Source of the DNA: Chloroflexota bacterium
GTDB lineage: Bacteria; Chloroflexota; Anaerolineae; Anaerolineales; Villigracilaceae
NCBI GenBank assembly: GCA_020217065.1
Contig: JAIWOB010000069.1
Span: 1-10,000 of the forward strand
Direction of reading: 5' to 3'
Length of the DNA: 10,000 bases
The position numbers and the translations under genes were made by a program. Every line of letters begins with the position of its first letter. Positions within the stretch are counted from its first letter, which is position 1. The notes under the pieces were generated by a model. It was given only the letters and a program-made list of their open reading frames with translations. It ran no database searches and was not told the origin of the DNA. This document shows, piece by piece, positions 1-10,000 of this stretch.

Positions 1-943
1 TTTCAGTCTCGCGTTTGGTGATGGCGCTCAAGGACATCAACATCAGCAGGGAAAAAAAGGCGACCGTTACCAGTTCGCCAAAGCCGCGGCGGGCGTATTC
101 GGCGTAAGTGTAGCCTTCCACGTTGATGTTGGTCTCGCCGCCGAAAAAGTACTGAAATTGAATGATGACGAAAACCGCGAAAAGCGCGACGACGCTGCCC
201 AGCACAATGGTCGCTTCGACGCTGCCGAGGAACGGCGGAATGAGCGGCTTGTCTTCGCTGACGAGTTTTTCATCCTTCGACTGCGCCGCCGCGTGGAGGA
301 TGACCCCCGCCAGCGCATATCCAATGACGACGATATAGACAAAGCGGAAAATCAATTCTGGCAGGTTGTCGAGGCGGAACCAGTTGATTAAATCTTCAAG
401 CCGCTGACCGAAGACCACATCTGCCGAGGCGAGGAGGGAGGCGAAGACGGTAATAACAGGCAATGCAATCAGGACGCCGCGTACGATGGGCCAGAGGTTT
501 CGCTTTGGAGGTTGAACGCCCGCCTCCGCTTGTCCCTTGCGGACTTCAGCCGTGTAAGCGATGGGGCGGGCAATCATGCTCCCCGCCAGCGATGCGGTTT
601 TGGCAAGATAATCAAAAAGGTTGTACTGAGTCCAACGTCCGCCGAGGTAGGTGACGGCGAGCAGGGTCATGGTCAACAGGGTGAAGGCGTAAGCCAGAAA
701 CGCAGTCATCGGCTCGGCGCGGATAAAAGTCACGGCGGCGAAAAAGCCGAAGAGCGGAATCAGACTCAGGCTGGCGCGGTTTGGGCGCAGCCCGTCGCTG
801 AGAAGAAGGTAGAACGCGGCGGTTACGCAGGCGGCGCAGAAAATCGCAAAGTTGACCCCGGCTTTCGTTTCCCAAAAAAGGAAATCGAAGAGCCAGCCGA
901 GGGCAAGGACAATCATCCAAAGTTTGTTGGGGTTTGTTTTCAT
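1..943 (-). CDS. DUF4173-family multi-pass membrane protein (3' end outside window)
   Basis: The frame is open from ATG at 943-941 to the left edge, giving 314 residues with no stop. An AGGAG at 950-954 lies 6 nt before the ATG and fixes the start. About eight hydrophobic segments are visible, roughly at residues 8-24, 29-48, 58-74, 79-99, 150-172, 195-217, 242-264 and 288-305. A charged, probably cytosolic, loop covers about 125-148. The stretch EYARRGFGEL near residues 281-290, just before a membrane segment, is the recognisable signature of DUF4173/DUF4153-type proteins. The family has no established reaction. It is often found near regulatory genes, but nothing here shows a role. It is transcribed away from the rhodanese gene's 3' end, with a 362-bp gap between them. 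Family membership is recalled from motif and topology, not from a search. Confidence 0.85.
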   Translation of the reverse strand, partial: MKTNPNKLWMIVLALGWLFDFLFWETKAGVNFAIFCAACVTAAFYLLLSDGLRPNRASLSLIPLFGFFAAVTFIRAEPMTAFLAYAFTLLTMTLLAVTYLGGRWTQYNLFDYLAKTASLAGSMIARPIAYTAEVRKGQAEAGVQPPKRNLWPIVRGVLIALPVITVFASLLASADVVFGQRLEDLINWFRLDNLPELIFRFVYIVVIGYALAGVILHAAAQSKDEKLVSEDKPLIPPFLGSVEATIVLGSVVALFAVFVIIQFQYFFGGETNINVEGYTYAEYARRGFGELVTVAFFSLLMLMSLSAITKRETE

Positions 944-1033
944 AATATTCTCCTGTTGTCTTGAAATCGCGCTTCGACCGCGCTTGGCGCAACAGACAAA
1001 GGATAGCCGTTTCCGCCTGACGGAGACTTGCAA

Positions 1034-1042
1034 AAGGTATCA
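1034..1042 (-). promoter_or_regulatory. Possible extended -10 for the DUF4173 gene
   Basis: On the minus strand TGA-TACCTT (1042-1034) resembles an extended -10. A poor -35 candidate, TTCCAG, lies 17 nt further upstream. It is about 90 nt upstream of the start codon. The rest of 944-1095 shows no gene or strong hairpin. Confidence 0.25.
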
Positions 1043-1095
1043 GAAATTTTCAAAAACTGGAAGATTACAGTTTTGTGAGAATCGAAAACGCCCCA

Positions 1096-1124
1096 TTGAC
1101 ACGCAATTTGTTTTATGACATACT
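1096..1124 (+). promoter_or_regulatory. Sigma70-type promoter of an orphan small transcript
   Basis: A perfect TTGACA (1096-1101) is separated by exactly 17 nt from CATACT (1119-1124). CATACT is preceded by TGA, giving an extended -10. Transcription would begin near 1131 and run rightward into the 16-codon ORF at 1184. No plus-strand gene of normal size lies downstream before 3885. Confidence 0.6.
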
Positions 1125-1183
1125 TTTAGCGTCGCGGGGGCAAACATCCGCCTGCCATCTTTTGAAAGGAGGAGGTGTTGCCG

Positions 1184-1234
1184 ATGAGTAGTAGTAACAA
1201 ACCCAGCGCTGTGGCAGCCCTCCCCGTTTTATAA
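1184..1234 (+). CDS. Putative 16-residue peptide (leader-like small ORF)
   Basis: ATG at 1184 follows an extended purine-rich Shine-Dalgarno, AAAGGAGGAGG at 1165-1175, about 8 nt upstream, the strongest such site in the window. The product MSSSNKPSAVAALPVL has three serines at the start and an Ala/Val/Leu-rich end, and stops at TAA 1232-1234. A good promoter lies 60 nt before the predicted SD-ATG region. The 5' arm of a 12-bp hairpin (1206-1252) is inside the ORF, so a translating ribosome would open it. This is the shape of a leader peptide, but the next gene is on the opposite strand. It could be an independent small protein, a leader stranded by rearrangement, or part of an sRNA. I do not recognise the peptide. 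Confidence 0.5.
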   Translation: MSSSNKPSAVAALPVL

Positions 1235-1252
1235 CGAAAACTGCCACAGCGC
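1206..1252 (+). other. 12-bp perfect hairpin overlapping the small ORF
   Basis: GCGCTGTGGCAG (1206-1217) and CTGCCACAGCGC (1241-1252) are exact reverse complements around a 23-nt loop that contains the small ORF's stop codon. There is no U-run after it. It is probably a regulatory or stabilising structure of the small transcript. Confidence 0.65.
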
Positions 1253-1256
1253 CCCA

Positions 1257-1283
1257 AGACAGCCATCCTAGCGATGGCTGTCT
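1257..1283. terminator. 11-bp hairpin, possible bidirectional transcription end
   Basis: AGACAGCCATC (1257-1267) and GATGGCTGTCT (1273-1283) pair perfectly around a 5-nt loop. It sits 22 nt past the rhodanese stop on the minus strand and directly after the small-ORF hairpin on the plus strand, where a convergent terminator is expected. Neither side has a proper T-run (plus side GGTTATTG), so intrinsic termination may be weak. Confidence 0.45.
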
Positions 1284-1305
1284 GGTTATTGAGGCGGGGG
1301 CTGGA

Positions 1306-1650
1306 TTAATAGAAGCCTACAGAAGAATCGACCTTGCGGGCGTAATCGTCAATTCCCCCTTTGACGTTGACTGCGTTTTTGTATCCGTTTTGAACCAGCC
1401 ACATGACGACTTGCGAACTGCGGCTGCCGTGATGGCATAGGACGTATGTGGGAATTTGTCCCGCGCGGATGGATGCGGGAAGGGCGTTCAAGCCCCGCTT
1501 GGCGAGAACGCTCATGGGAATGTTTTCGAGGCGGGGGTCGGCGATGGCGGCGCGGTCCAATTCGAACGGCTCCCGCACGTCGAGTAAAACAAACGCTTCG
1601 TTTGATTTCAGTTTTTCGCCGAGTTCGGCGGCGGTGATTTCAGCGTACAT
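1306..1650 (-). CDS. Single-domain rhodanese-like sulfurtransferase
   Basis: This is a 114-residue protein of one rhodanese domain. It has the DVREPFE motif at 24-30, an active-site loop beginning at Cys72 (CHHGSR, 72-77), and a C-terminal VKGGIDDYA at 96-104. Cys72 would carry the persulfide. The six-residue loop and the ending resemble rhodanese domains fused to MoeB/ThiF-type E1 enzymes, but here the domain stands alone. It is cytosolic, with no signal peptide. Its ATG lies 1 nt after the glgP stop and has no clear Shine-Dalgarno, so translation is probably coupled to glgP. The real sulfur acceptor cannot be read from the sequence; the link to glycogen metabolism may only be shared transcription. 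Confidence 0.9.
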   Translation of the reverse strand: MYAEITAAELGEKLKSNEAFVLLDVREPFELDRAAIADPRLENIPMSVLAKRGLNALPASIRAGQIPTYVLCHHGSRSSQVVMWLVQNGYKNAVNVKGGIDDYARKVDSSVGFY

Positions 1651-1651
1651 T

Positions 1652-3784
1652 TTATTTCAGCGCCGGGGCGTATAATTTTTCGACATATTCCTTGACCATG
1701 CGGCGGGTGGAAAAGCGCGGAATGACGGTTTTCATGCTGTTTTTCATCATGGCAATCCATTCTCTCGAAATATCCTTAAGGTCGCGATTATAGAAGAGGG
1801 GGACGATTTTGTGTTCAAGCGTATAGTAAAGGTCTTCAGCGTCCGCCGCATCCTGGATTTCGCTGGAGCCGTATTCCTTATCTTCGCCGATAGCCCAGCC
1901 GTTTTGTCCGTTATAGGCTTCGCGCCACCAGCCGTCGAGGACGGAGAAATTCAACGCGCCGTTAAGGGCGGCTTTCATGCCCGACGTTCCGCTGGCTTCC
2001 ATGGGACGGCGCGGCGTGTTCATCCACACATCCACGCCCTGCACAAGATAGCGCGCCAGATTCATGTCGTAATCTTCAAGAAAGACCAGCCGTCCGCCTG
2101 TCTCAGCCCGTTTGACCGTGCGGTAGACCTGTTGAATTAACTGTTTGCCTGGTTCGTCGGCGGGATGCGCCTTGCCGGCAAAGATGATTTGCACCGGCAT
2201 GTTGGGGCGGTTGATGAGTTCGAGCAGGCGGTCAATATCTGAAAGAATCAGGCTGGCGCGTTTGTAGGTGGCAAAGCGCCGCGCGAACCCGATGGTCAGG
2301 GCGTAAGGATTGATTAACACGCCGGAAGAGACCACCTGCACGGGGTGGAAACCGCCGTGCGTCCAACGGTCGCGGACGCGTTCGCGCATATAGAACGCCA
2401 GTTTTCGTTTGAGATGTTGGTGGACGCCCCACAACTCGGCGTCTGGAATATTGTCTAATTTTTCCCAGATGGAAGGCTCATCGAGACGGTCGTACCAGTC
2501 TGCGCCGAGATAAACCTCCAGCAGGTTTTTCATGCGGCGCGCCATCCAGTTGGCGGTATGCACGCCGTTGGTGATATGTTGAATGGGAACCTCTTCTTCG
2601 GTTTTTCCCTGCCAGAGGAAATTCCACATTCCTCGGGCGACTTGCCCGTGCAGTTCGGAAACGCCGTTGCTGCCGCCGGAAAGTTTGAGGGCAAGAACGG
2701 GCATGGAAAAGGTTTCGGTGTGCGGCTTTTGATGTCTGGCGATATCCACAAATTCTTCGCGGGTCAAGCCAAGTTTGCCCCAGAAGTTGGCGAGGTATTT
2801 ATCAATCAGCCAGAGCGGGAATTCGTCGTTGCCGGCGGGAACGGGAGTATGGGTGGTAAAGACGTTTTGTTTTTTCGTTTTCTGCGCGGCTTGGGAAAAG
2901 GTCAGCCCGGAGTCTACAAGTTCGCGCGCCCGCTCCAGGGTGAGAAAGGCGGCGTGTCCTTCGTTCATGTGCCAGACGGCGGGAGAAATCTCCAGGGCGC
3001 GCAGAGCGCGCACGCCGCCTGCGCCAAGCAGGATTTCCTGCATCACGCGGCGGTCCAGGTCGGACCAGTACAGGCGGGCGGTAAGCAGGCGGTCAAAAGA
3101 ATCGTTTTGTTCGATGTTCGAGTCGAGCAGGTAAAGCGGAACGCGCCCCACCCGCACCTCCCAAATTTGAAGGCTCACAGCGCGGTCCGGAAATTCAACC
3201 GTCACGGCGAGGGGCTTTCTATTTTTCGTCACCAGGGTCACTGGATGATGTTGAAGGTTGAGGGGATTATTCAACGCTTCCTGCCAGCCGTCCTCGCTGA
3301 TGCGCTGCGAGAAGTAACCCTGGGCGTACATCAACCCAACGCCAACGAGAGGCAGTCCGAGGTCGGAGGCTTCTTTCAGGTGGTCGCCCGCCAGCACGCC
3401 CAAGCCGCCGGAGTAGATGGGCAGGGTTTCATGCAAACCGAATTCCATCGAAAAGTAAGCGACCGGTTGAGCGTCAAACTCTGGATGCGTCCGCTGCGTC
3501 CATGTTTTTTGGGCAAAATAAGCGTCGAACTTCTGAAAGAGCGCGTCGTACAGAGTCAGGTATTCGTCGTCTTGCGCGATTTGCTCCAACCTTTGCCGGG
3601 GGGCTTCCCGCAAAAAGCGGAGGGGGTTATGACCGAGGCGTTCCCACAAATCGTAATCGAGTTTGCCGAATAAATGCGCGGTTTCCGGCTGCCAGGTCCA
3701 CCATAGGTTGTAAGCCAGTTCGCCGAGGCGGGCGATGCGTTTGGGAAGGTCGAATTTTGAAGAAGGGTTTGTTTTGAATTCCAT
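1652..3784 (-). CDS. glgP: Alpha-glucan (glycogen/maltodextrin) phosphorylase, GT35, with DUF3417 N-terminus
   Basis: The enzyme releases glucose-1-phosphate from alpha-1,4-glucans using phosphate and PLP. The product is 710 residues from ATG 3784, the usual size of the short archaeal/Thermotoga-like branch and shorter than the ~800-residue E. coli/animal type. Residues 11-31 (...LGELAYNLWWTW) begin the DUF3417 N-terminal domain. VAYFSMEFGL (108-117) and HMNEGHAAF (272-280) follow. FARRFATYKRA is at 500-510 and QIIFAGKAHPADEPGK at about 532-547. The PLP lysine is Lys604 in EASGTSGMKAALNG. An upstream TTG at 3862 would add 26 residues unlike the family and would overlap the divergent promoter, so the ATG is preferred, although its Shine-Dalgarno is weak. 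It is divergent from pfkA across 100 bp and is followed by the rhodanese gene in the same operon. Confidence 0.95.
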   Translation of the reverse strand: MEFKTNPSSKFDLPKRIARLGELAYNLWWTWQPETAHLFGKLDYDLWERLGHNPLRFLREAPRQRLEQIAQDDEYLTLYDALFQKFDAYFAQKTWTQRTHPEFDAQPVAYFSMEFGLHETLPIYSGGLGVLAGDHLKEASDLGLPLVGVGLMYAQGYFSQRISEDGWQEALNNPLNLQHHPVTLVTKNRKPLAVTVEFPDRAVSLQIWEVRVGRVPLYLLDSNIEQNDSFDRLLTARLYWSDLDRRVMQEILLGAGGVRALRALEISPAVWHMNEGHAAFLTLERARELVDSGLTFSQAAQKTKKQNVFTTHTPVPAGNDEFPLWLIDKYLANFWGKLGLTREEFVDIARHQKPHTETFSMPVLALKLSGGSNGVSELHGQVARGMWNFLWQGKTEEEVPIQHITNGVHTANWMARRMKNLLEVYLGADWYDRLDEPSIWEKLDNIPDAELWGVHQHLKRKLAFYMRERVRDRWTHGGFHPVQVVSSGVLINPYALTIGFARRFATYKRASLILSDIDRLLELINRPNMPVQIIFAGKAHPADEPGKQLIQQVYRTVKRAETGGRLVFLEDYDMNLARYLVQGVDVWMNTPRRPMEASGTSGMKAALNGALNFSVLDGWWREAYNGQNGWAIGEDKEYGSSEIQDAADAEDLYYTLEHKIVPLFYNRDLKDISREWIAMMKNSMKTVIPRFSTRRMVKEYVEKLYAPALK

Positions 3785-3841
3785 AGCGGCGAATGATACC
3801 TCATTTTCGCGCGCCGGGCGCGTTTGGCGCGATTCTGGGAC

Positions 3842-3847
3842 TATAAT
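3842..3847 (+). promoter_or_regulatory. -10 element (TATAAT) of pfkA
   Basis: A perfect TATAAT lies 37 nt before the pfkA start codon, predicting a start near 3853-3855 and a leader of about 30 nt. No good -35 is seen at 17 nt, so an activator may be needed. The minus strand reads TATAGT over 3845-3840, so a glgP promoter may overlap it. The pfkA Shine-Dalgarno is GGGAG at 3873-3877. Confidence 0.5.
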
Positions 3848-3884
3848 CAAAGCCCGTAGCAAAAATTAATACGGGAGACGTTTT

Positions 3885-5000
3885 ATGCCTGCAAAAAAAA
3901 TAAATCCAATTAAGAGAATCGCAATCAGCACCGGCGGCGGCGACGCGCCCGGTTTGAACGCTGTCATTCGCGCGGCGACTCTTTCCGCCATCAAGCGCGG
4001 CTGGGAGGTGTACGGAGTTCTTGACGGTTTCAACGGGCTGATTTTGCCGGAACAGTATCCAAACGGCGGCTTAATTCCGCTGACCCGCGAACGCGTGCGC
4101 GGCATCACCCATTTGGGCGGGACCATCCTGGGAACAAGCAATCGAAACAACCCGCTCAAGTACCCCGTGCCGCGCCCCGACGGCACGATTGAAGAAGTGG
4201 ACCGCAGCGACGAGATTGTGCGCGGCTTTGGGCTTCACCACATTGACGCGCTGATTACGGTCGGCGGCGACGGTTCGCTGGCGATTGCTAGCGTCCTCGC
4301 TAAAAAAGGGCTGCGCCTGATTTCCGTTCCCAAGACGATTGACAACGACTTGGACAAGACGGACGTCACCTTCGGCTTTGAGACCGCCGTGGGCTTTGCG
4401 ACCGAATGTATTGACCGCCTGCATTCGACCGCCGCGTCTCACGGGCGGGTGATGGTCGTTGAAGTGATGGGACGTTACGCCGGCTGGATAGCCCTCCACG
4501 CGGGCGTGGCTGGCTCCGCCGACGCCATCCTGATTCCGGAACGTCCCTACGATATTCACAAAGTCGTTGACAAAATCCGCGAGCGCGAGGCGCAAGGCAG
4601 CAAGTTCACCATTGTGGTGGTGGCGGAAGGCGCGACGCCGATGGGCGGCGGAGTAACCGTTTTGGAGCATGAAGCGGGGCGCGCCGAGCGCCTGGGAGGC
4701 ATCGGCGAAAAGGTGGCGGCGGAAATTCACGAAATTTCCGGCAAAGAAACCCGCGTCGTGGTGCTGGGTCACTTGCTGCGCGGCGGTTCGCCCACGGCGT
4801 TTGACCGCCTGATTGCTTTGCGCTTTGGCGCCGCCGCCGTGCGCGGGCTGGAAGAAGGTCATGAGGGAGTTATGGTCTCTCTCGACCCGCCGCATGTAAA
4901 ATACGTTCCCATCGAAGAAGCGAAGGGCAGGATGAAGATGGTGCCGATGGATTCGGACACGATTCTCACCGCCCTTGATTTGGGAATTTCGTTCGGCTGA
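3885..5000 (+). CDS. pfkA: 6-phosphofructokinase, mixed-substrate (group III) type
   Basis: The enzyme phosphorylates fructose-6-phosphate to fructose-1,6-bisphosphate in glycolysis. The product is 371 residues, slightly longer than E. coli PfkA (320), as usual for group III. GGGDAPGLNAVIRA is at 17-30. GGDGS is at 127-131. PKTIDND is at 149-155, with catalytic Asp153. MGR is at 195-197 and LGHLLRGGSPTAFDR at 294-308. In E. coli numbering, position 104 is Gly (Gly130 here), which favours ATP over pyrophosphate. Position 124 is Lys (Lys150), the mark of the PPi/mixed group rather than classical PfkA. ATP use is therefore predicted but not certain. The start has GGGAG 7 nt upstream. The gene has its own promoter and terminator, so it is probably monocistronic and divergent from glgP. 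Confidence 0.95.
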   Translation: MPAKKINPIKRIAISTGGGDAPGLNAVIRAATLSAIKRGWEVYGVLDGFNGLILPEQYPNGGLIPLTRERVRGITHLGGTILGTSNRNNPLKYPVPRPDGTIEEVDRSDEIVRGFGLHHIDALITVGGDGSLAIASVLAKKGLRLISVPKTIDNDLDKTDVTFGFETAVGFATECIDRLHSTAASHGRVMVVEVMGRYAGWIALHAGVAGSADAILIPERPYDIHKVVDKIREREAQGSKFTIVVVAEGATPMGGGVTVLEHEAGRAERLGGIGEKVAAEIHEISGKETRVVVLGHLLRGGSPTAFDRLIALRFGAAAVRGLEEGHEGVMVSLDPPHVKYVPIEEAKGRMKMVPMDSDTILTALDLGISFG

Positions 5001-5011
5001 AATTCGAAAGC

Positions 5012-5043
5012 GCGCCCGACGCGATGTTGGGCGCATTTTTTTT
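5012..5043 (+). terminator. Intrinsic terminator of pfkA
   Basis: GCGCCCGAC (5012-5020) pairs with GTTGGGCGC (5026-5034) in a 9-bp stem with one G-U pair and a 5-nt loop. It is followed by A and then eight T (5036-5043). It begins 11 nt after the pfkA stop and ends only 15 nt before the lutA start codon. Confidence 0.9.
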
Positions 5044-5058
5044 ACGAAAAAGGACTTT

Positions 5059-5784
5059 ATGACCGCAGTCCAACTCTTCGTCACCTGCCTAATTGATTCC
5101 TTCTTCCCGCAAACCGGCGAGGCGGCGGTGGACATTCTCCGCCGTCTTGGCGTCCGCGTGGAATTTCCCTATGAGCAAACCTGTTGCGGACAGCCGACCT
5201 TCAACGCAGGTCTTCGCAGAGACGCGCGCGCCATTGCCGAGCATACCATCAAGGTCTTTGAGAAGACCGAAGGAGACATCGTCACGCCTTCGGGTTCCTG
5301 CGCGCACATGTTCCGCCACAATTATCCGGAGCTTTTTGAAGGGGATTCGTCTTGGATTCCGCGAGCGCAAGCCCTTGCGGCGCGGACGTATGAATTCACA
5401 GAATACCTTGTGGATAAATTGGGCGTAACCGATGTCGGCGCGCGATGGAACGGCAAATTAACCTATCATCCATCTTGCCACACCTTGCGCGGAATCAAGG
5501 TAGACCGTCAGCCGCGCGCCCTGCTCTCGAATGTGAGAGGCGCAATCCTGGTTGAGCTGCCCCACGCCGAGGAATGCTGCGGCTTCGGCGGCGTCATGTC
5601 GGTGGAGCATCCCGAACTCTCGGCGGAGTGGTTGAAGCGCAAGATTCGGAACTTCGAGGAGACCAACGCCCCGACCCTGGTTGTGACCGACGCGGGCTGT
5701 CTGATGCACATCGCAGGCGGACTGCATCGTCAAAAGAAAACGCAGCGGGTGATGCACATCGCGGAAATTCTGAACCACAAATAA
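5059..5784 (+). CDS. lutA: LutA-like (Fe-S)-binding protein, lactate utilization
   Basis: The 241-residue product matches the LutA/YkgE family (about 240 residues), one of three parts of the non-flavin LutABC system that oxidises L-lactate to pyruvate. It contains two copies of the cysteine-rich CCG domain. The first has CCG at 42-44 with Cys81. The second has HPSCH at 138-141 (Cys140), ECCGFGG at 172-178 and Cys214 in DAGCLMH. These cysteines are the likely cluster ligands, and such domains also occur in heterodisulfide reductase and glycolate oxidase iron-sulfur subunits. The frame is open upstream into pfkA, but family similarity begins at MTAVQLFVTC. The ATG at 5059 has AAAGGA just upstream with a short gap. 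The gene is followed by a methyltransferase remnant and lutB. The pfkA terminator lies directly before it, leaving almost no room for a promoter in between. Confidence 0.92.
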   Translation: MTAVQLFVTCLIDSFFPQTGEAAVDILRRLGVRVEFPYEQTCCGQPTFNAGLRRDARAIAEHTIKVFEKTEGDIVTPSGSCAHMFRHNYPELFEGDSSWIPRAQALAARTYEFTEYLVDKLGVTDVGARWNGKLTYHPSCHTLRGIKVDRQPRALLSNVRGAILVELPHAEECCGFGGVMSVEHPELSAEWLKRKIRNFEETNAPTLVVTDAGCLMHIAGGLHRQKKTQRVMHIAEILNHK

Positions 5785-5798
5785 CGAGGGAATAGACC

Positions 5799-5918
5799 AT
5801 GAGTTCCAATGCAGCCAGGTATTACGACGATATTTACGCCGCCAATGGCAAGGATTACCGCGCCGAAGCGGACGTTATACGCGGTTTATTTGGTCAAAAA
5901 CCATTGGGTGTAAAATGA
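5799..5918 (+). pseudogene. N-terminal remnant of a class I SAM-dependent methyltransferase (39 codons)
   Basis: A 39-codon frame begins with ATG at 5799, behind a GAGGG at 5786-5790. Residues 7-25 (RYYDDIYAANGKDYRAEAD) read like the N-terminus of small class I SAM-dependent methyltransferases, where the next element is normally the SAM loop with a D-x-x-C-G-T-G type motif. That motif and everything after it are absent. After residue 30 the frame turns to FGQKPLGVK and ends at TGA 5916-5918, which overlaps the lutB ATG as ATGA. The simplest reading is an internal deletion that removed most of a gene and left its start, which may still couple translation from lutA to lutB. Alternatively it is a small functional peptide. 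The methyltransferase call rests on recall of the motif. Confidence 0.6.
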
Positions 5919-7915
5919 GCGCAACTTCCTTCCGTCAAAGAATCCGCCAGTCCATTGAGGATGAAAATCTCCAGGTCGCTCTCGATAACAACGCCGAGCG
6001 CCGCTTGAAGGGGCGCGCTGCCGCTTTTCAGTCCATCCGCGACCTGGAAGAGAGACGCCAGCGCGCGCGTTCCATCCGCGCGGACGTTATTGAACGTCTC
6101 GACCAATACCTCGACCAGTTTATCGCAAAGAACAAGGAAAACGGCGTCATTGTCCATCGCGCCAAAGACGCGCATGAAGCGGTTCAAATCGTTTTGGATA
6201 TTGCAAAGTCAATTTCCAATTATCAATCGTCCAAACTGCGAGTCGCCAAATCCAAGAGCATGGTCTCGGAGGAAATCGAGTTAAACCATGCGTTGGAAAA
6301 AGCGGGTATTGAAGTCGTCGAGACCGACCTCGGCGAATACATCGTCCAACTGCGCCATGAACGTCCCAGTCATCTTATCGCGCCTGCCGTGCATCTCAAA
6401 AAAGAACAGGTCGGAGAGCTCTTCCACGAAAAACTGGGCGTCCCCTACACGGCGGATATTCCCACGCTGACCGCCGTCGCGCGCAAGGTTCTGCGCGAAG
6501 TCTTCCTCACGGCGGACGTTGGATTCAGCGGCGTTAACTTTGGCGTAGCGGAAACGGGCGGCGTGTGCATCGTCACCAACGAAGGCAACGCGCGTATGGT
6601 GACAACCATTCCGCCTGTCCACATCGCGTTGATGGGCATGGAGCGCCTTGTGCCAAATCTCGACGACCTTTCTCTCATGCTTTCACTCCTGCCGCGCTCC
6701 GCCACAGGACAAAAGCTCACCGTCTATACTCAGTTGCTTCACAAGCCGCTGGTTGGAAAACAGCGTCACCTGGTTTTGCTCGATAATGGACGCGCCCGCT
6801 TGCGGAATTCCCCGCTCAAAGAATCCTTGTACTGCATTCGCTGCGGCGCGTGCCTCAACGCCTGTCCCGTTTTCCGCGAACTCGGCGGACATGCCTACAT
6901 TGGCGGCGACCTGTCCATTGCGCCGTATCCCGGTCCGATTGGCTCGGTTATCTCGCCCGGATTGCTTGGCGAAAATTACGTTCAACTGGCGCAGGCTTCG
7001 TCCTTGTGCGGCGCGTGTAAAGAAGTCTGCCCTGTGGATATTGACCTGCCCAGGTTATTGACCCGCGTGCGGGCTGGGCAGTCTCCAAGCGCCGACGACC
7101 AACCTTCAAACGCCGCTGGCGGAGCGGGACTTTCCTCCTCGACCAAACTTTTCCTGCGGCTGTTTGCCCGCGCCGCGTCTCACCCGCGGTTGTTTGCCCT
7201 CTCCCAGAAATTTGCTTCGCTGGGAACTTTCCTGCTTGCGCCGCGTTCGGACTGGGCGCGGCTGCCCGCTTTTACGGGCTGGGGCTACAGCAAGGACTTT
7301 CCCCGTTTTGCGGCAAAGACATTTCGGGAGAGATATAAGGATAAATTGGCAAACCAACCGCCGCGTCAAACCTTGCGGCAAACCGAATCTTTTAAAGCCG
7401 TTCCTCCCATAGACCATTCAATTACCCTGCCCCTCCCTGAAGTTCAATTCGCGCAGGAACTCACCGCCCTCGGCGGGCATGTGGTTTTCACTCATCATCC
7501 CACCCGCTCGGTGATTGAATTTTTGAATTTGCGCGGCGTGAAAAAGATTTGTCTCGAGCCGCATACGCTCGACGAAAATCTTTTGCGGCAAGAGGGCGTC
7601 GAATTTACCTATGAGCCTGACGCGCAAGCCGTTGTTGGCGTGACAAAGGCTCGCTGCGGGCTGGCGGACACGGGGTCCATTTTGGTCGCCGCCGGGGCAG
7701 GGCATCCGCTTGAGGCTTCGCTCCTTCCCGAAGTTCACATTGCCGTCCTTAAAACCGCCGACATCCTGCCTTCTTTGTCCGACGCCCTGCCGTTTGTCGG
7801 AGACAAAAGCGCGGCGGTCTTTATCACGGGACCTTCGCGCACGGCGGATATTGAAATGGCTCTGACCATCGGCGTGCATGGACCAAAGGAAATTTACGTT
7901 TTTTTGGTGTCATAG
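5915..7915 (+). CDS. lutB: LutB-LutC fusion: LUD-domain iron-sulfur protein of lactate utilization
   Basis: This 666-residue protein is much longer than usual LutB/LldF (about 470) because a second LUD domain is fused to it. Residues about 70-295 form the LutB LUD domain, with GVAETGGVCIVTNEGNARM at 210-228. Two 4Fe-4S motifs follow: Cys307, 310, 313 and 317 (CIRCGACLNACP), then Cys365, 368 and 372 (CGACKEVCP). A LutB C-terminal region covers about 405-480, ending in a Gln/Arg-rich linker. Residues about 500-666 match LutC, with KARCGLADTGSILVAAG at 578-594 and the family-typical ITGPSRTADIEMALTIGVHG at 637-656. With LutA this would give a complete LutABC activity from two genes. It is cytosolic, with no signal peptide. 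The ATG overlaps the methyltransferase remnant's stop (ATGA), and only a weak GGGTG lies before it, so coupling is likely. Fusion boundaries are estimates. Confidence 0.92.
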   Translation: MSATSFRQRIRQSIEDENLQVALDNNAERRLKGRAAAFQSIRDLEERRQRARSIRADVIERLDQYLDQFIAKNKENGVIVHRAKDAHEAVQIVLDIAKSISNYQSSKLRVAKSKSMVSEEIELNHALEKAGIEVVETDLGEYIVQLRHERPSHLIAPAVHLKKEQVGELFHEKLGVPYTADIPTLTAVARKVLREVFLTADVGFSGVNFGVAETGGVCIVTNEGNARMVTTIPPVHIALMGMERLVPNLDDLSLMLSLLPRSATGQKLTVYTQLLHKPLVGKQRHLVLLDNGRARLRNSPLKESLYCIRCGACLNACPVFRELGGHAYIGGDLSIAPYPGPIGSVISPGLLGENYVQLAQASSLCGACKEVCPVDIDLPRLLTRVRAGQSPSADDQPSNAAGGAGLSSSTKLFLRLFARAASHPRLFALSQKFASLGTFLLAPRSDWARLPAFTGWGYSKDFPRFAAKTFRERYKDKLANQPPRQTLRQTESFKAVPPIDHSITLPLPEVQFAQELTALGGHVVFTHHPTRSVIEFLNLRGVKKICLEPHTLDENLLRQEGVEFTYEPDAQAVVGVTKARCGLADTGSILVAAGAGHPLEASLLPEVHIAVLKTADILPSLSDALPFVGDKSAAVFITGPSRTADIEMALTIGVHGPKEIYVFLVS

Positions 7916-7987
7916 ACGAACATAGGTTCTGCCCTAAAAGAGCGGATAGGCTTGCGGAAAAGTAAAACCTCCGGAAAAACGACTTTG

Positions 7988-7996
7988 TGCTATAAT
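7988..7996 (+). promoter_or_regulatory. Extended -10 promoter of the aspS leader
   Basis: TGC-TATAAT (7988-7996) is a perfect -10 with a TGn extension. The hexamer at the -35 position (CCTCCG) is poor, which an extended -10 tolerates. Transcription should start near 8002-8004, so the leader ORF ATG at 8005 is nearly or fully leaderless. The preceding 7916-7987 shows no terminator for lutB and no other feature. Confidence 0.6.
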
Positions 7997-8004
7997 CCAC
8001 GCCG

Positions 8005-8091
8005 ATGTTCAAGAACGCCCGTCCCGCCAACAATAATAATAACAACGACAATGGCGACTTACAGGTCGTTGGGCGAAGCGCGGCTGCTTGA
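8005..8091 (+). CDS. Asn/Asp-rich 28-residue leader peptide of aspS
   Basis: ATG 8005 to TGA 8089-8091 encodes 28 residues. Asn is at positions 4, 9-14 (six in a row) and 16; Asp is at 15 and 18. That is eight Asn and two Asp, with NNNNNNDNGD at 9-18. The peptide then continues LQVVGRSAAA. No Shine-Dalgarno is present; the predicted transcription start is 1-3 nt before the ATG, consistent with leaderless initiation. The codons AAC-AAC-GAC (13-15) are themselves arm 1 of the downstream attenuator structure. In ribosome-controlled attenuators the repeated codon reports the charged tRNA made by the operon, as with His codons in his and Phe codons in pheST. Here the downstream gene makes Asp-tRNA and, if non-discriminating, the precursor of Asn-tRNA. 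The peptide probably has no function beyond being translated. Expression is inferred. Confidence 0.65.
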   Translation: MFKNARPANNNNNNDNGDLQVVGRSAAA

Positions 8092-8155
8092 CAGAATAAC
8101 TCAGGTCAGAACCAATCGCCCGACGCAGACGCGAAGGGCGATTTATTTTATATAT
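8043..8155 (+). promoter_or_regulatory. Ribosome-dependent transcription attenuator upstream of aspS
   Basis: Four segments give three competing stems. Arms 1 and 2: CAACGAC (8043-8049) pairs with GTCGTTG (8065-8071), 7 bp. Arms 2 and 3: CGTTGGGCGA (8067-8076) pairs with TCGCCCGACG (8116-8125), 10 bp with one U-G. Arms 3 and 4: AATCGCCC (8114-8121) pairs with GGGCGATT (8136-8143), followed by a U-rich tract. Arm 1 consists of the Asn-Asn-Asp codons. A ribosome stalled there for lack of charged tRNA would cover arm 1, freeing arm 2 to hold arm 3 so that no terminator forms and aspS is transcribed. With ample tRNA the ribosome passes and terminates, 1:2 re-forms and 3:4 stops transcription. The pairings are read directly from the sequence; the mechanism is inferred by analogy. 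Confidence 0.7.
8114..8155 (+). terminator. Terminator hairpin of the aspS attenuator
   Basis: An 8-bp perfect stem AATCGCCC/GGGCGATT with a 14-nt loop is followed by TTATTTTATATATA. It ends 135 nt before the aspS ATG and about 150 nt after the predicted transcription start. The U-tract is interrupted by A, so read-through may be appreciable. Confidence 0.7.
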
Positions 8156-8165
8156 ACCCAACACC

Positions 8166-8266
8166 CGTCGTTGCGAAGGCGGCGCACTTCCGCCCGGAGC
8201 GCTCTCCTGTCAATATACGGAGATTGCTTCGCCGCCAAAGTACAAGAGCGGCGGCTCGCAATGACG
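8166..8266. repeat. MITE/REP-like palindromic intergenic element
   Basis: The ends are near-perfect inverted repeats: CGTCGTTGCGA (8166-8176) and TCGCAATGACG (8256-8266), 10 of 11 matching. Inside are two small hairpins, GGCGG/CCGCC (8178-8182 with 8190-8194) and GCCGCC/GGCGGC (8231-8236 with 8250-8255). Read on the minus strand, CGTCATTGCGA... followed by GAAGCAATCTCC matches an intergenic repeat style I recall from many bacterial genomes, including Chloroflexota. No target-site duplication is evident. It sits between the attenuator and the aspS ribosome site. Only one copy is in the window, so repeat status is recalled, not shown. Confidence 0.6.
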
Positions 8267-8289
8267 AGGAAATCTTTTGGAGGCGCATT

Positions 8290-10000
8290 ATGTATAGAAC
8301 TCATACTTGTGGAGAATTACGCGCCAGTCACGCGGGACAGACCGTCACCGTTGCGGGCTGGGTCAACCGCCGCCGCGACCACGGCGGGGTGGTCTTCTTT
8401 GACTTGCGCGACCGCGCGGGCATTGTCCAAATCACAATTAATCCAGACCTGCCCAAAGAGACCCTCGACCTCGTGGCGAGCGTCCGCTTCGAGTGGGCGC
8501 TGCAAATTGAAGGTCAGGTGAAGAAGCGCCCAGCGGGAAACGAAAATCCCAACATGGCGACGGGCGAAGTGGAAATCATCGCCCAGAAAATCACCGTTCT
8601 CAATCCGTCCAAAACGCCTCCCTTTATGGTCAATACCGACAACGACCTGCCGGACGAAAACATGCGCCTCAAATATCGTTATGTGGACCTGCGCCGCGAG
8701 CGCATGACCCGCAATATGGTGTTGCGCCACAAGGTCGTCAAGTTCATGCGCGACTATCTCGACGAGCAAGGCTTCATCGAAATCGAAACGCCCATCCTGT
8801 TCAAGGCGACTCCCGAAGGCGCGCGCGACTACCTTGTTCCCTCGCGTCTTTATCCCGGACAATTCTACGCCCTGCCGCAGTCGCCCCAGCAGTTGAAGCA
8901 GCTGCTGATGGTAGCCGGCATGGACAGGTATTTCCAGATTGCGCGCTGCTTCCGCGACGAAGACCTGCGCGGCGACCGCCAGCCTGAGTTCACCCAACTT
9001 GACCTTGAGATGTCCTTTGTCCACCGCGACGACGTTTTGAACCTGGTGGAAGACCTCTTTACTAAAATGATTCCCGCCGTCGCCCCGCATAAAAAGCTGC
9101 TCTCGATTCCCTGGAAGAAATTCTCCTACCGCGAGGTGGTGGAAAAATACGGCACGGATAAACCCGACCTGCGCTTTGGAATGGAACTGGTGGACGTGAG
9201 CGAAGTTTTTGCCAAGAGCGAATTCAAGGTCTTCAAGTCGGCACTTGAGGCGGGCGGCGTCGTCAAGTGCATTGTCGCCCCCCGCAGCGCGGATATGTCC
9301 CGCAAGGAGGTGGACGCCCTGACCGAAGTCGCCAAGACTTTCGGCGCGAAGGGCATGCCCACGTTAGGCGTCACCGCCGAAGGCGTGAAGGGCAGCGTCT
9401 CGAAGTTCGTCACGCCTGAAGAGGTGGAAGCGCTCAAGTCCAGGACGGGCGCGAAAGAGGGCGACCTGATTGTCTTTGCGGCAGACGCCCGCGCCGTTGC
9501 AAACAAGACCCTCGGCGGACTGCGGCTCTGGTTCCGCGATAAACTCGACCTCGCAGACAAGAGCATGATGGCTTTTGCCTGGGTGGTGGATTTCCCCTTC
9601 TTTGCCTGGAACGAAGAAGAGCGGAAATGGGAATCGGAACATCATCCCTTCACCATGCCCAAGATGGAAGACCTCGAAAAGTTCGACACCGACCCCGGCG
9701 CGGTGATGTCCGAAGCCTACGACATGGTCTGCAACGGCTATGAGATGGCGTCAGGCTCCATCCGCATTCACCGCCGCGACATCCAGATGAAGATGTTCCA
9801 GATGCTCGGTCTGACCGACGAAGAAATTCAAACCAAGTTCGGTCACATGCTCGAAGCCTTCGAGTACGGCGCTCCCCCGCACGGCGGCATGGCTCCCGGC
9901 ATTGACCGCCTCGTCATGCTCCTCGCCGACGAACCCAACATCCGCGAAGTCATCGCCTTCCCCAAGAATCAAGCGGGACGCGACGTGATGGCGGACGCCC
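8290..10000 (+). CDS. aspS: Aspartyl-tRNA synthetase, probably non-discriminating (3' end outside window)
   Basis: This class II synthetase charges tRNAAsp, and in non-discriminating forms also tRNAAsn, with aspartate. ATG 8290 has GGAGG 6 nt upstream (8279-8283). The 570 codons present are nearly the full ~590 of bacterial AspRS. An OB-fold anticodon domain covers about residues 1-105. Motif 1 is near 131-167. Motif 2 includes CFRDED at 220-225. The bacterial GAD insertion lies about 290-420. Motif 3 is GIDRLVMLL, with Arg540. His31 in RRRDHGG and Gly83 in KRPAGN match the residues reported in Pseudomonas aeruginosa to permit tRNAAsn charging; discriminating E. coli has Leu and Lys there. 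Such enzymes need GatCAB to convert Asp-tRNAAsn to Asn-tRNAAsn. Regulation is probably by the leader-peptide attenuator at 8005-8155. The protein is intact as far as the window edge. Confidence 0.96.

Follow-up and report, generated by a model that had tools for sequence, protein, structure and literature searches.

What controls aspS, the gene for aspartate--tRNA ligase, in a Chloroflexota bacterium of the Villigracilaceae in which a short open reading frame (ORF) filled with Asn and Asp codons lies between a promoter element and the gene? The window, by which we mean the whole stretch of 10,000 nucleotides that was analysed (contig JAIWOB010000069.1 of assembly GCA_020217065.1, positions 1 to 10,000), ends inside this gene, and the sequence-only reading of it had proposed control by a leader peptide. 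Our analysis leads, with a probability of about 0.88, to a ribosome-mediated transcription attenuator of the trp, his and pheST type, with Asn and Asp as the control codons. Judged by its anatomy, the element is a real and conserved attenuator; the sequence-only reading was correct in substance, and the principle is an old one.

Organization of the Locus

From position 7915, where a LutB/LldF-like gene ends, the sequence runs through an extended -10 element, the leader ORF, a predicted terminator and 139 more bases to aspS. The genome assembly is incomplete and the contig stops inside aspS, which starts at 8290 and leaves the contig end. Its product passes the equivalog cut-offs, with 733 bits for TIGR00459, where 374 are required, and 830 bits for NF001750, where 443 are required. 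The best-matching named relatives of this AspRS are from uncultured Chloroflexi/Anaerolineae MAGs, with a top identity of 92%. From the leader ATG to the aspS start there are 285 bases in the window and about 140 to 350 across the leaders compared. The features, all on the plus strand, are the following.

7988..7996, +, extended -10 promoter element TGC-TATAAT (TATAAT itself at 7991-7996)
8005..8091, +, leader ORF of 28 codons, MFKNARPANNNNNNDNGDLQVVGRSAAA and stop (TGA at 8089-8091); its ATG lies 8 nt past TATAAT
8029..8058, +, putative regulatory codon run: six Asn at 8029-8046, Asp at 8047, Asn at 8050, Gly at 8053, Asp at 8056
8052..8058, +, arm 1 in its conserved version, UGGCGAC, pairing with 8065-8071
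8043..8049, +, arm 1 in an alternative, more distant version, CAACGAC, pairing with GTCGTTG at 8065-8071
8065..8076, +, arm 2: 8065-8071 to arm 1, CGTTGGGCGA at 8067-8076 to arm 3
8114..8125, +, arm 3: TCGCCCGACG at 8116-8125 for the antiterminator, AATCGCCC at 8114-8121 for the terminator
8136..8143, +, arm 4, GGGCGATT, partner of 8114-8121
8114..8143, +, predicted intrinsic terminator hairpin: 8 bp and an inner 3 bp, 8124-8126/8131-8133
8144..8150, +, U-rich tract behind the hairpin; the aligned leaders, 44 in all, are T-rich at this place too
8279..8283, +, Shine-Dalgarno sequence GGAGG of aspS, read directly from the sequence
8290..9999, +, aspS, aspartate--tRNA ligase, incomplete at the contig end (TIGR00459 and NF001750 matches)

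The elements that had been pointed out earlier are therefore all in place: the 28-codon ORF with six Asn codons and Asp-Asn-Gly-Asp behind TATAAT, the pairings of 7 bp (1:2), 10 bp (2:3) and 8 bp (3:4), and the U-rich tract. A tRNA scan of the window gave no match, and no inverted repeats were detected at 8144-8290.

Selection for Asn and Asp Codons

An ORF with an Asn/Asp run is present in all 44 leaders of the family. The 500 codons that lie in these leaders between codon 8 and arm 2 comprise 256 for Asn and 131 for Asp, a single one each for Lys and Glu, and 111 of other kinds. This gives 387 Asn/Asp codons vs 2 for Lys/Glu, and the Asn/Asp codons end in C in 134 cases and in T in 253. A merely A-rich non-coding RNA would be expected to yield Lys and Glu about equally often, and the excess of Asn/Asp over Lys/Glu, together with the C and T third bases, hence demonstrates selection on the amino acid, not A-richness. 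In the genus, the densest 12-codon stretch of a short upstream ORF holds 8.9 Asn/Asp codons on average (35 regions; 2.8 in shuffles), and at least six in 35 out of 35 regions. That chance is unlikely to give such an arrangement, as had been argued from the window, is supported by these regions and by its occurrence at 31/31 aspS starts of the genus; wherever aspS upstream regions of close relatives were collected, they contained Asn/Asp codons with C or T as third base.

Promoter and Start of the Transcript

TGC stands immediately 5' of TATAAT in 43/44 family leaders, and the gap between TATAAT and the leader ATG is 7-12 nt in 43/44. With so short a gap, transcripts are expected to start at or just before the leader ATG, which would make the leader ORF near-leaderless. 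No promoter with a -35 hexamer was found in a sigma-70 scan, and the conserved part is the extended -10 element. Among the 23 leaders outside the family, 12 have a gap of 6-12 nt and 8 one of 18-35 nt, and in 3 no -10 element was found. The DNA 5' of the promoter, compared among the 41 of 44 leader regions that were long enough, matches over at least 150 bp in just 28 of 820 pairs, none of them involving the window's own region; because this upstream DNA is mostly unrelated, the conserved unit consists of promoter, leader and aspS.

Pairing of the RNA Arms

Arm 2 pairs with arm 3 over 10 bp, one of them G-U (CGTTGGGCGA/TCGCCCGACG, 8067-8076/8116-8125), and bases 8116-8121 are used by both the antiterminator and the terminator, the two structures being mutually exclusive. 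Compared with 200 dinucleotide shuffles in each case, the folding of 8003-8155 has z = -4.2, the terminator at 8114-8143 (-18.2 kcal/mol) z = -5.2 and the segment 8065-8127, which contains the 2:3 stem, reaches z = -2.7 at -24.9 kcal/mol. A simple terminator scan omits the plus-strand terminator, probably because the loops that it permits have only 3-8 bases.

In the family alignment (A1), the conserved 1:2 stem is formed by columns 77-83 with 91-97, and 96.7% of its cells are paired, compared with 23-55% when the partner is slid (21-55% over all three stems). Seven cells of this stem are changed on both sides, which 0/500 shuffles reach; by the number of doubly changed pairs and of pair types, the stem is no better than shuffles (86/500 and 324/500 reach them). 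The arm 1 first proposed, 8043-8049, does pair and is in the window itself the stronger one (-9.4 vs -7.0 kcal/mol for 8052-8058), but with 89.9% of A1 cells paired it is less conserved; 8052-8058 is to be regarded as the conserved arm 1. The RNAalifold consensus on A1 has a hairpin at columns 92-117 that replaces 1:2. The 2:3 stem, paired in 99.1% of cells over the 44 family leaders, is nearly invariant, and its covariation score in the family is not above that of shuffles (241/500 reach it), while the terminator stem 3:4 is paired in 95.6% of cells and has double changes at two pairs, in 4 cells. Compensatory changes, the lack of which had been named as a refuting result, are thus present but few in the family: they occur in 1:2 and in the terminator, and none in 2:3.

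Given this invariance within the family, own and foreign arms were compared between families. The own arm 2:arm 3 duplex beats the mean foreign one in 31/32 cases (Wilcoxon p = 2e-9) and, in a set reduced to one per family of the order plus eight genomes of the class, in 16/17 (p = 2e-5), p values that overstate independence since the families share ancestry. The own arm 3 is the very best partner in just 6/32, and one locus (L049) fails the test. As an example of divergent arms, L041 pairs CATCGGGCG with CGCCCGATG and the genus pairs CGTTGGGCG with CGCCCGACG. L035 is absent from the comparison because the strict finder missed its terminator, though TCGCCCGACGC...GGGCG is visible, and L033 was retained although the finder chose a wrong hairpin. 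With the codons kept, the arms pairing in relatives and own arms beating foreign ones between families, the interpretation as an attenuator is well supported, and from it we infer control by the charging of Asn- and Asp-tRNA.

Proposed Mechanism and Folding Models

In the proposed attenuator, the RNA would start at the leader ATG or a few bases from it. When Asn-tRNA and Asp-tRNA are both ample, the ribosome would reach the stop codon and cover arm 2, the 3:4 hairpin would form and RNA polymerase would halt at this terminator. A shortage of one or the other charged tRNA would make the ribosome stall in the Asn/Asp run and cover arm 1, leaving arm 2 to pair with arm 3; the terminator would then be blocked and aspS transcribed, likely together with gatC-gatA in the genus of the window and with asnS in sister genera.

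The switch was modelled on a transcript cut after arm 3, with the ribosomal A site placed codon by codon. With the ribosome at the main codons of the run, the mean antiterminator probability is 0.80-1.00; past the run it is 0.50 at one codon, 0.02 at two and 0.00 farther on as far as the stop codon, so that the run ends where stalling ceases to help. Stalls 5' of the run can antiterminate as well (0.57-1.00), and the coincidence therefore concerns one border of the run only. On the full transcript at equilibrium, with the ribosome masked, the terminator wins: the mean antiterminator probability along the run is 0.03-0.16, and two Asn codons of the window are the only places with higher values (0.33 and 0.60). 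An equilibrium switch on the full transcript was not obtained, and only the cut-transcript model switches. As the terminator dominates at equilibrium, switching has to be kinetic, which is also how known attenuators work (PMC1183508).

The cut-transcript model lends something to another reading of this anatomy, namely that the terminator responds to how the near-leaderless ORF is being translated in general and not to Asn/Asp charging specifically: without a ribosome, the cut transcript is half antiterminated (0.55; 0.80 in the window), which makes the 1:2 stem a weak brake. We nevertheless consider this quite improbable, for it leaves both the 387 Asn/Asp vs 2 Lys/Glu codons and the gatC and asnS neighbours of aspS unexplained.

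The Leader Peptide

It is also conceivable that the peptide itself acts, as a small protein rich in Asn or as a peptide that causes stalling, with RNA structure being secondary, and the conservation of ORF, start and run throughout a family would agree with this. The peptides of different families, however, diverge outside the Asn/Asp run. In three leaders (L008, L020, L024), arm 2 is read in another frame, which changes the tail to PYRWAKPC and leaves the RNA arm unchanged, and the conservation of the peptide tail tracks the bases of arm 2. An active peptide is for these reasons highly improbable, and the attenuator with Asn/Asp control codons remains the preferred reading.

Distribution among Relatives

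Within the genus, the layout precedes aspS in 31/31 genomes with an assembled aspS start, the window's own included, from a sample of 37 genomes that also contained G007, G010, G011, G017, G020 and G024, in which this start is not assembled. The arm motif of the genus occurs in exactly one copy in each of 29 carrier genomes (61 searched). The leader is present in 12/12 relatives that belong to the family but not to the genus, a set made up of five loci (assigned by 77-81% AspRS identity only), four genomes and three genomes.

Other families of the order carry the leader in about 13 of 22 regions (21 regions plus G360; G037 was left out though its aspS start is present). Twelve of these regions score at least 5 Asn/Asp in 12 codons, and the thirteenth, L040 with SSDDNN, was recognized by eye. 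Three more, L043, L044 and L047, are ambiguous, and no leader is seen in the other six (L032, L037, L038, L042, L051 and G360). Elsewhere in the class, 3/74 regions have at least 6 Asn/Asp in 12 codons and 7/74 at least 5. In this sample, aspS was matched in 136/150 genomes and 80 regions were hand-picked for family spread, which became 74 after removal of five from the window's own family and omission of G071 (78 nt). In the codon scoring as a whole, L074 fell below 6 only because its leader, which is present, starts outside the 330 nt examined.

Believable leaders with a terminator were found in the class families f35 (G080, G110), f18 (G147, G182, G166 with 4 Asn/Asp, and G097, which is L275) and f23 (G068; G149 and G100 with only 3 Asn/Asp), and two further genomes of f18, G063 and G196, showed no leader. 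G105 and G113, also of the class, have 5 Asn/Asp but the finder sees no terminator, and they were not counted. In the rest of the phylum, where aspS was matched in 189/201 genomes, 0/50 regions (40 regions and 10 further loci outside the class) have both 5 or more Asn/Asp codons among 12 and, by the finder, a terminator behind them. An LNNNTQ ORF with 4 Asn/Asp in 12 codons lies about 180 bases before aspS at L263 (G306, outside the class); it was likewise left uncounted, as the finder sees no terminator there.

In the distant families f35, f4 and f23, the leader peptides start alike (M..ILVVDNANDN / MKQVLIVDGANLN), a resemblance that may reflect one origin of the leaders in different orders.

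Genes behind aspS and Asparagine Synthesis

The sequence-only reading named aspS as the target. The leader does precede aspS throughout the genus, but the controlled unit is probably wider, to judge by the genes that come next in relatives, gatC or asnS. In a complete genome of the genus (G026), aspS is followed by gatC, gatA, two other ORFs and gatB, and farther on by asnS; gatC lies 0.1-1.1 kb 3' of aspS in 26/27 genus loci (at L020 it is absent from the DNA covered) and in one further genome, G271, and at L053 gatC, gatA and gatB are all named near aspS. In the four other-genus genomes of the family (4/4), asnS comes directly 3' of aspS, as it does in the families f8 (2) and f14 (1), and in G147 (f18) gatC and gatA lie 1.5 kb beyond aspS. 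Within 2-3.6 kb 3' of aspS, a search with proteins of one genome (G026), which may miss distant relatives, found no gatC or asnS in 15 regions of further lineages that bear a leader or are ambiguous, nor in G040 and 15 leaderless regions. Since Asn and Asp are the codons of the tRNAs charged by these clusters, the leader seems to read the charged tRNAs of its own operon. No Asn/Asp leader was found before stand-alone asnS at seven loci (L053-L059), which places asnS there outside the control of the leader.

The motif RRRDHG, whose His may be a mark of non-discriminating AspRS, is present in the window's AspRS and in 20/21 Anaerolineae/Chloroflexi loci (L060-L080). GatCAB recognises the U1-A72 pair of tRNA-Asn, and tRNA-Asn of G026, the one genome considered here, has U1-A72 (TCCTTGC...GCAAGGA). 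This pair has been counted as a criterion beside GatCAB, and a relaxed-specificity AspRS, GatCAB and AsnRS are able to coexist, as stated in the same report (PMC4206432). It is possible, and we propose it tentatively as something short of an even chance, that the leader senses the two-step synthesis of Asn on tRNA. Asn and Asp codons would then read the two products of a non-discriminating AspRS, of which Asn-tRNA arises only after GatCAB, and one attenuator would balance aspartyl-tRNA charging against transamidation and would have been kept through a switch of pathway; in sister lineages with asnS in place of gatC-gatA, the sensor would serve the direct route. AsnB matches occur in 38/41 genomes (25 above the cut-off), and Asn may therefore have sources other than the tRNA route.

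T-boxes and Known Attenuators

T-box riboswitches have similar target genes and, by inference, respond to the same signal, uncharged tRNA; in one survey, they are reported for asnS in a few Firmicutes, for one aspS gene out of the three in C. acetobutylicum, and for the ile-tRNA ligase and trp genes of Dehalococcoides (PMC2494555). The leader of the window differs in that it has no T-box and in that the sensor would be the translating ribosome: Rfam at gathering threshold gave nothing on the window, the T-box model RF00230 being unmatched. A constitutive partial terminator, or a T-box-like RNA that binds uncharged tRNA, with the ORF being fortuitous, is hardly credible: T-boxes do occur elsewhere, with matches in 41/41 genomes of relatives (1-8 each, 34 genomes with at least one above the cut-off), but 7900-8300 has no Rfam match at E up to 5, no T-box stands immediately 5' of aspS among the matches listed, and the Asn/Asp frame is kept in 44/44 leaders despite third-base drift. 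As the relatives carry T-boxes, aspS is treated differently within T-box users.

With the classical attenuators (trp, his, pheST), the leader of aspS shares a series of control codons within a short ORF, the synthetase gene downstream, the overlapping 1:2, 2:3 and 3:4 pairings and the U-tract terminator. Unlike them, it mixes Asn and Asp, occurs in Chloroflexota, has an ORF almost without a 5' leader, and stands before aspS with gatC-gatA or asnS behind. Leader-peptide attenuators of synthetase genes have been described for trpS and leuS in Streptomyces (PMC1262725). A His leader peptide of hisS/hisZ adds the bacilli to the Proteobacteria and Actinobacteria, from which alone leader peptides were then known according to that study (PMC2965389); it resembles the present case as a synthetase-type gene outside these two phyla and differs in amino acid, taxon and arms. 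In Sinorhizobium meliloti, the attenuator transcript of the leaderless trpL has the ATG of its leader peptide as its 5' end (PMC7298713), and the present transcript would likewise begin at the leader ATG; in that source the start is reported for the transcript, whereas here it is deduced from the 7-12 nt gap behind TATAAT.

The literature searched contained no leader-peptide attenuator with Asn or Asp control codons, in agreement with the earlier statement that none was known for aspS. A 2010 article by Lopatovskaya, Seliverstov and Lyubetsky (Mol Biol 44:128) reportedly deals with attenuation in amino acid and aminoacyl-tRNA operons and is a possible precedent. The principle is that of classical attenuation, and the Asn/Asp specificity and the taxon appear to be undescribed within the literature searched. 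If the attenuator is what it seems, leader-peptide attenuation would gain Asn and Asp among its amino acids and Chloroflexota among its phyla, the aspS-gatC-gatA and aspS-asnS clusters would acquire a regulatory link, and T-boxes and an attenuator would be two tRNA-sensing strategies in one cell, the choice between which could be studied. Attenuation that works without a Shine-Dalgarno sequence could moreover be studied well on the near-leaderless ORF.

Flanking Sequences

Between terminator and aspS (8151-8278 in the window), the relatives differ and carry sequences resembling dispersed repeats, several of them of the type CGTCATTGCGAG...CTCGCAATGACG. On the other side of the promoter, positions 5915-7915 encode a LutB/LldF-type iron-sulfur protein of 666 aa, which scores slightly below the curated cut-off, and positions 5056-5783 a separate protein that resembles the C-terminal part of LdhH.
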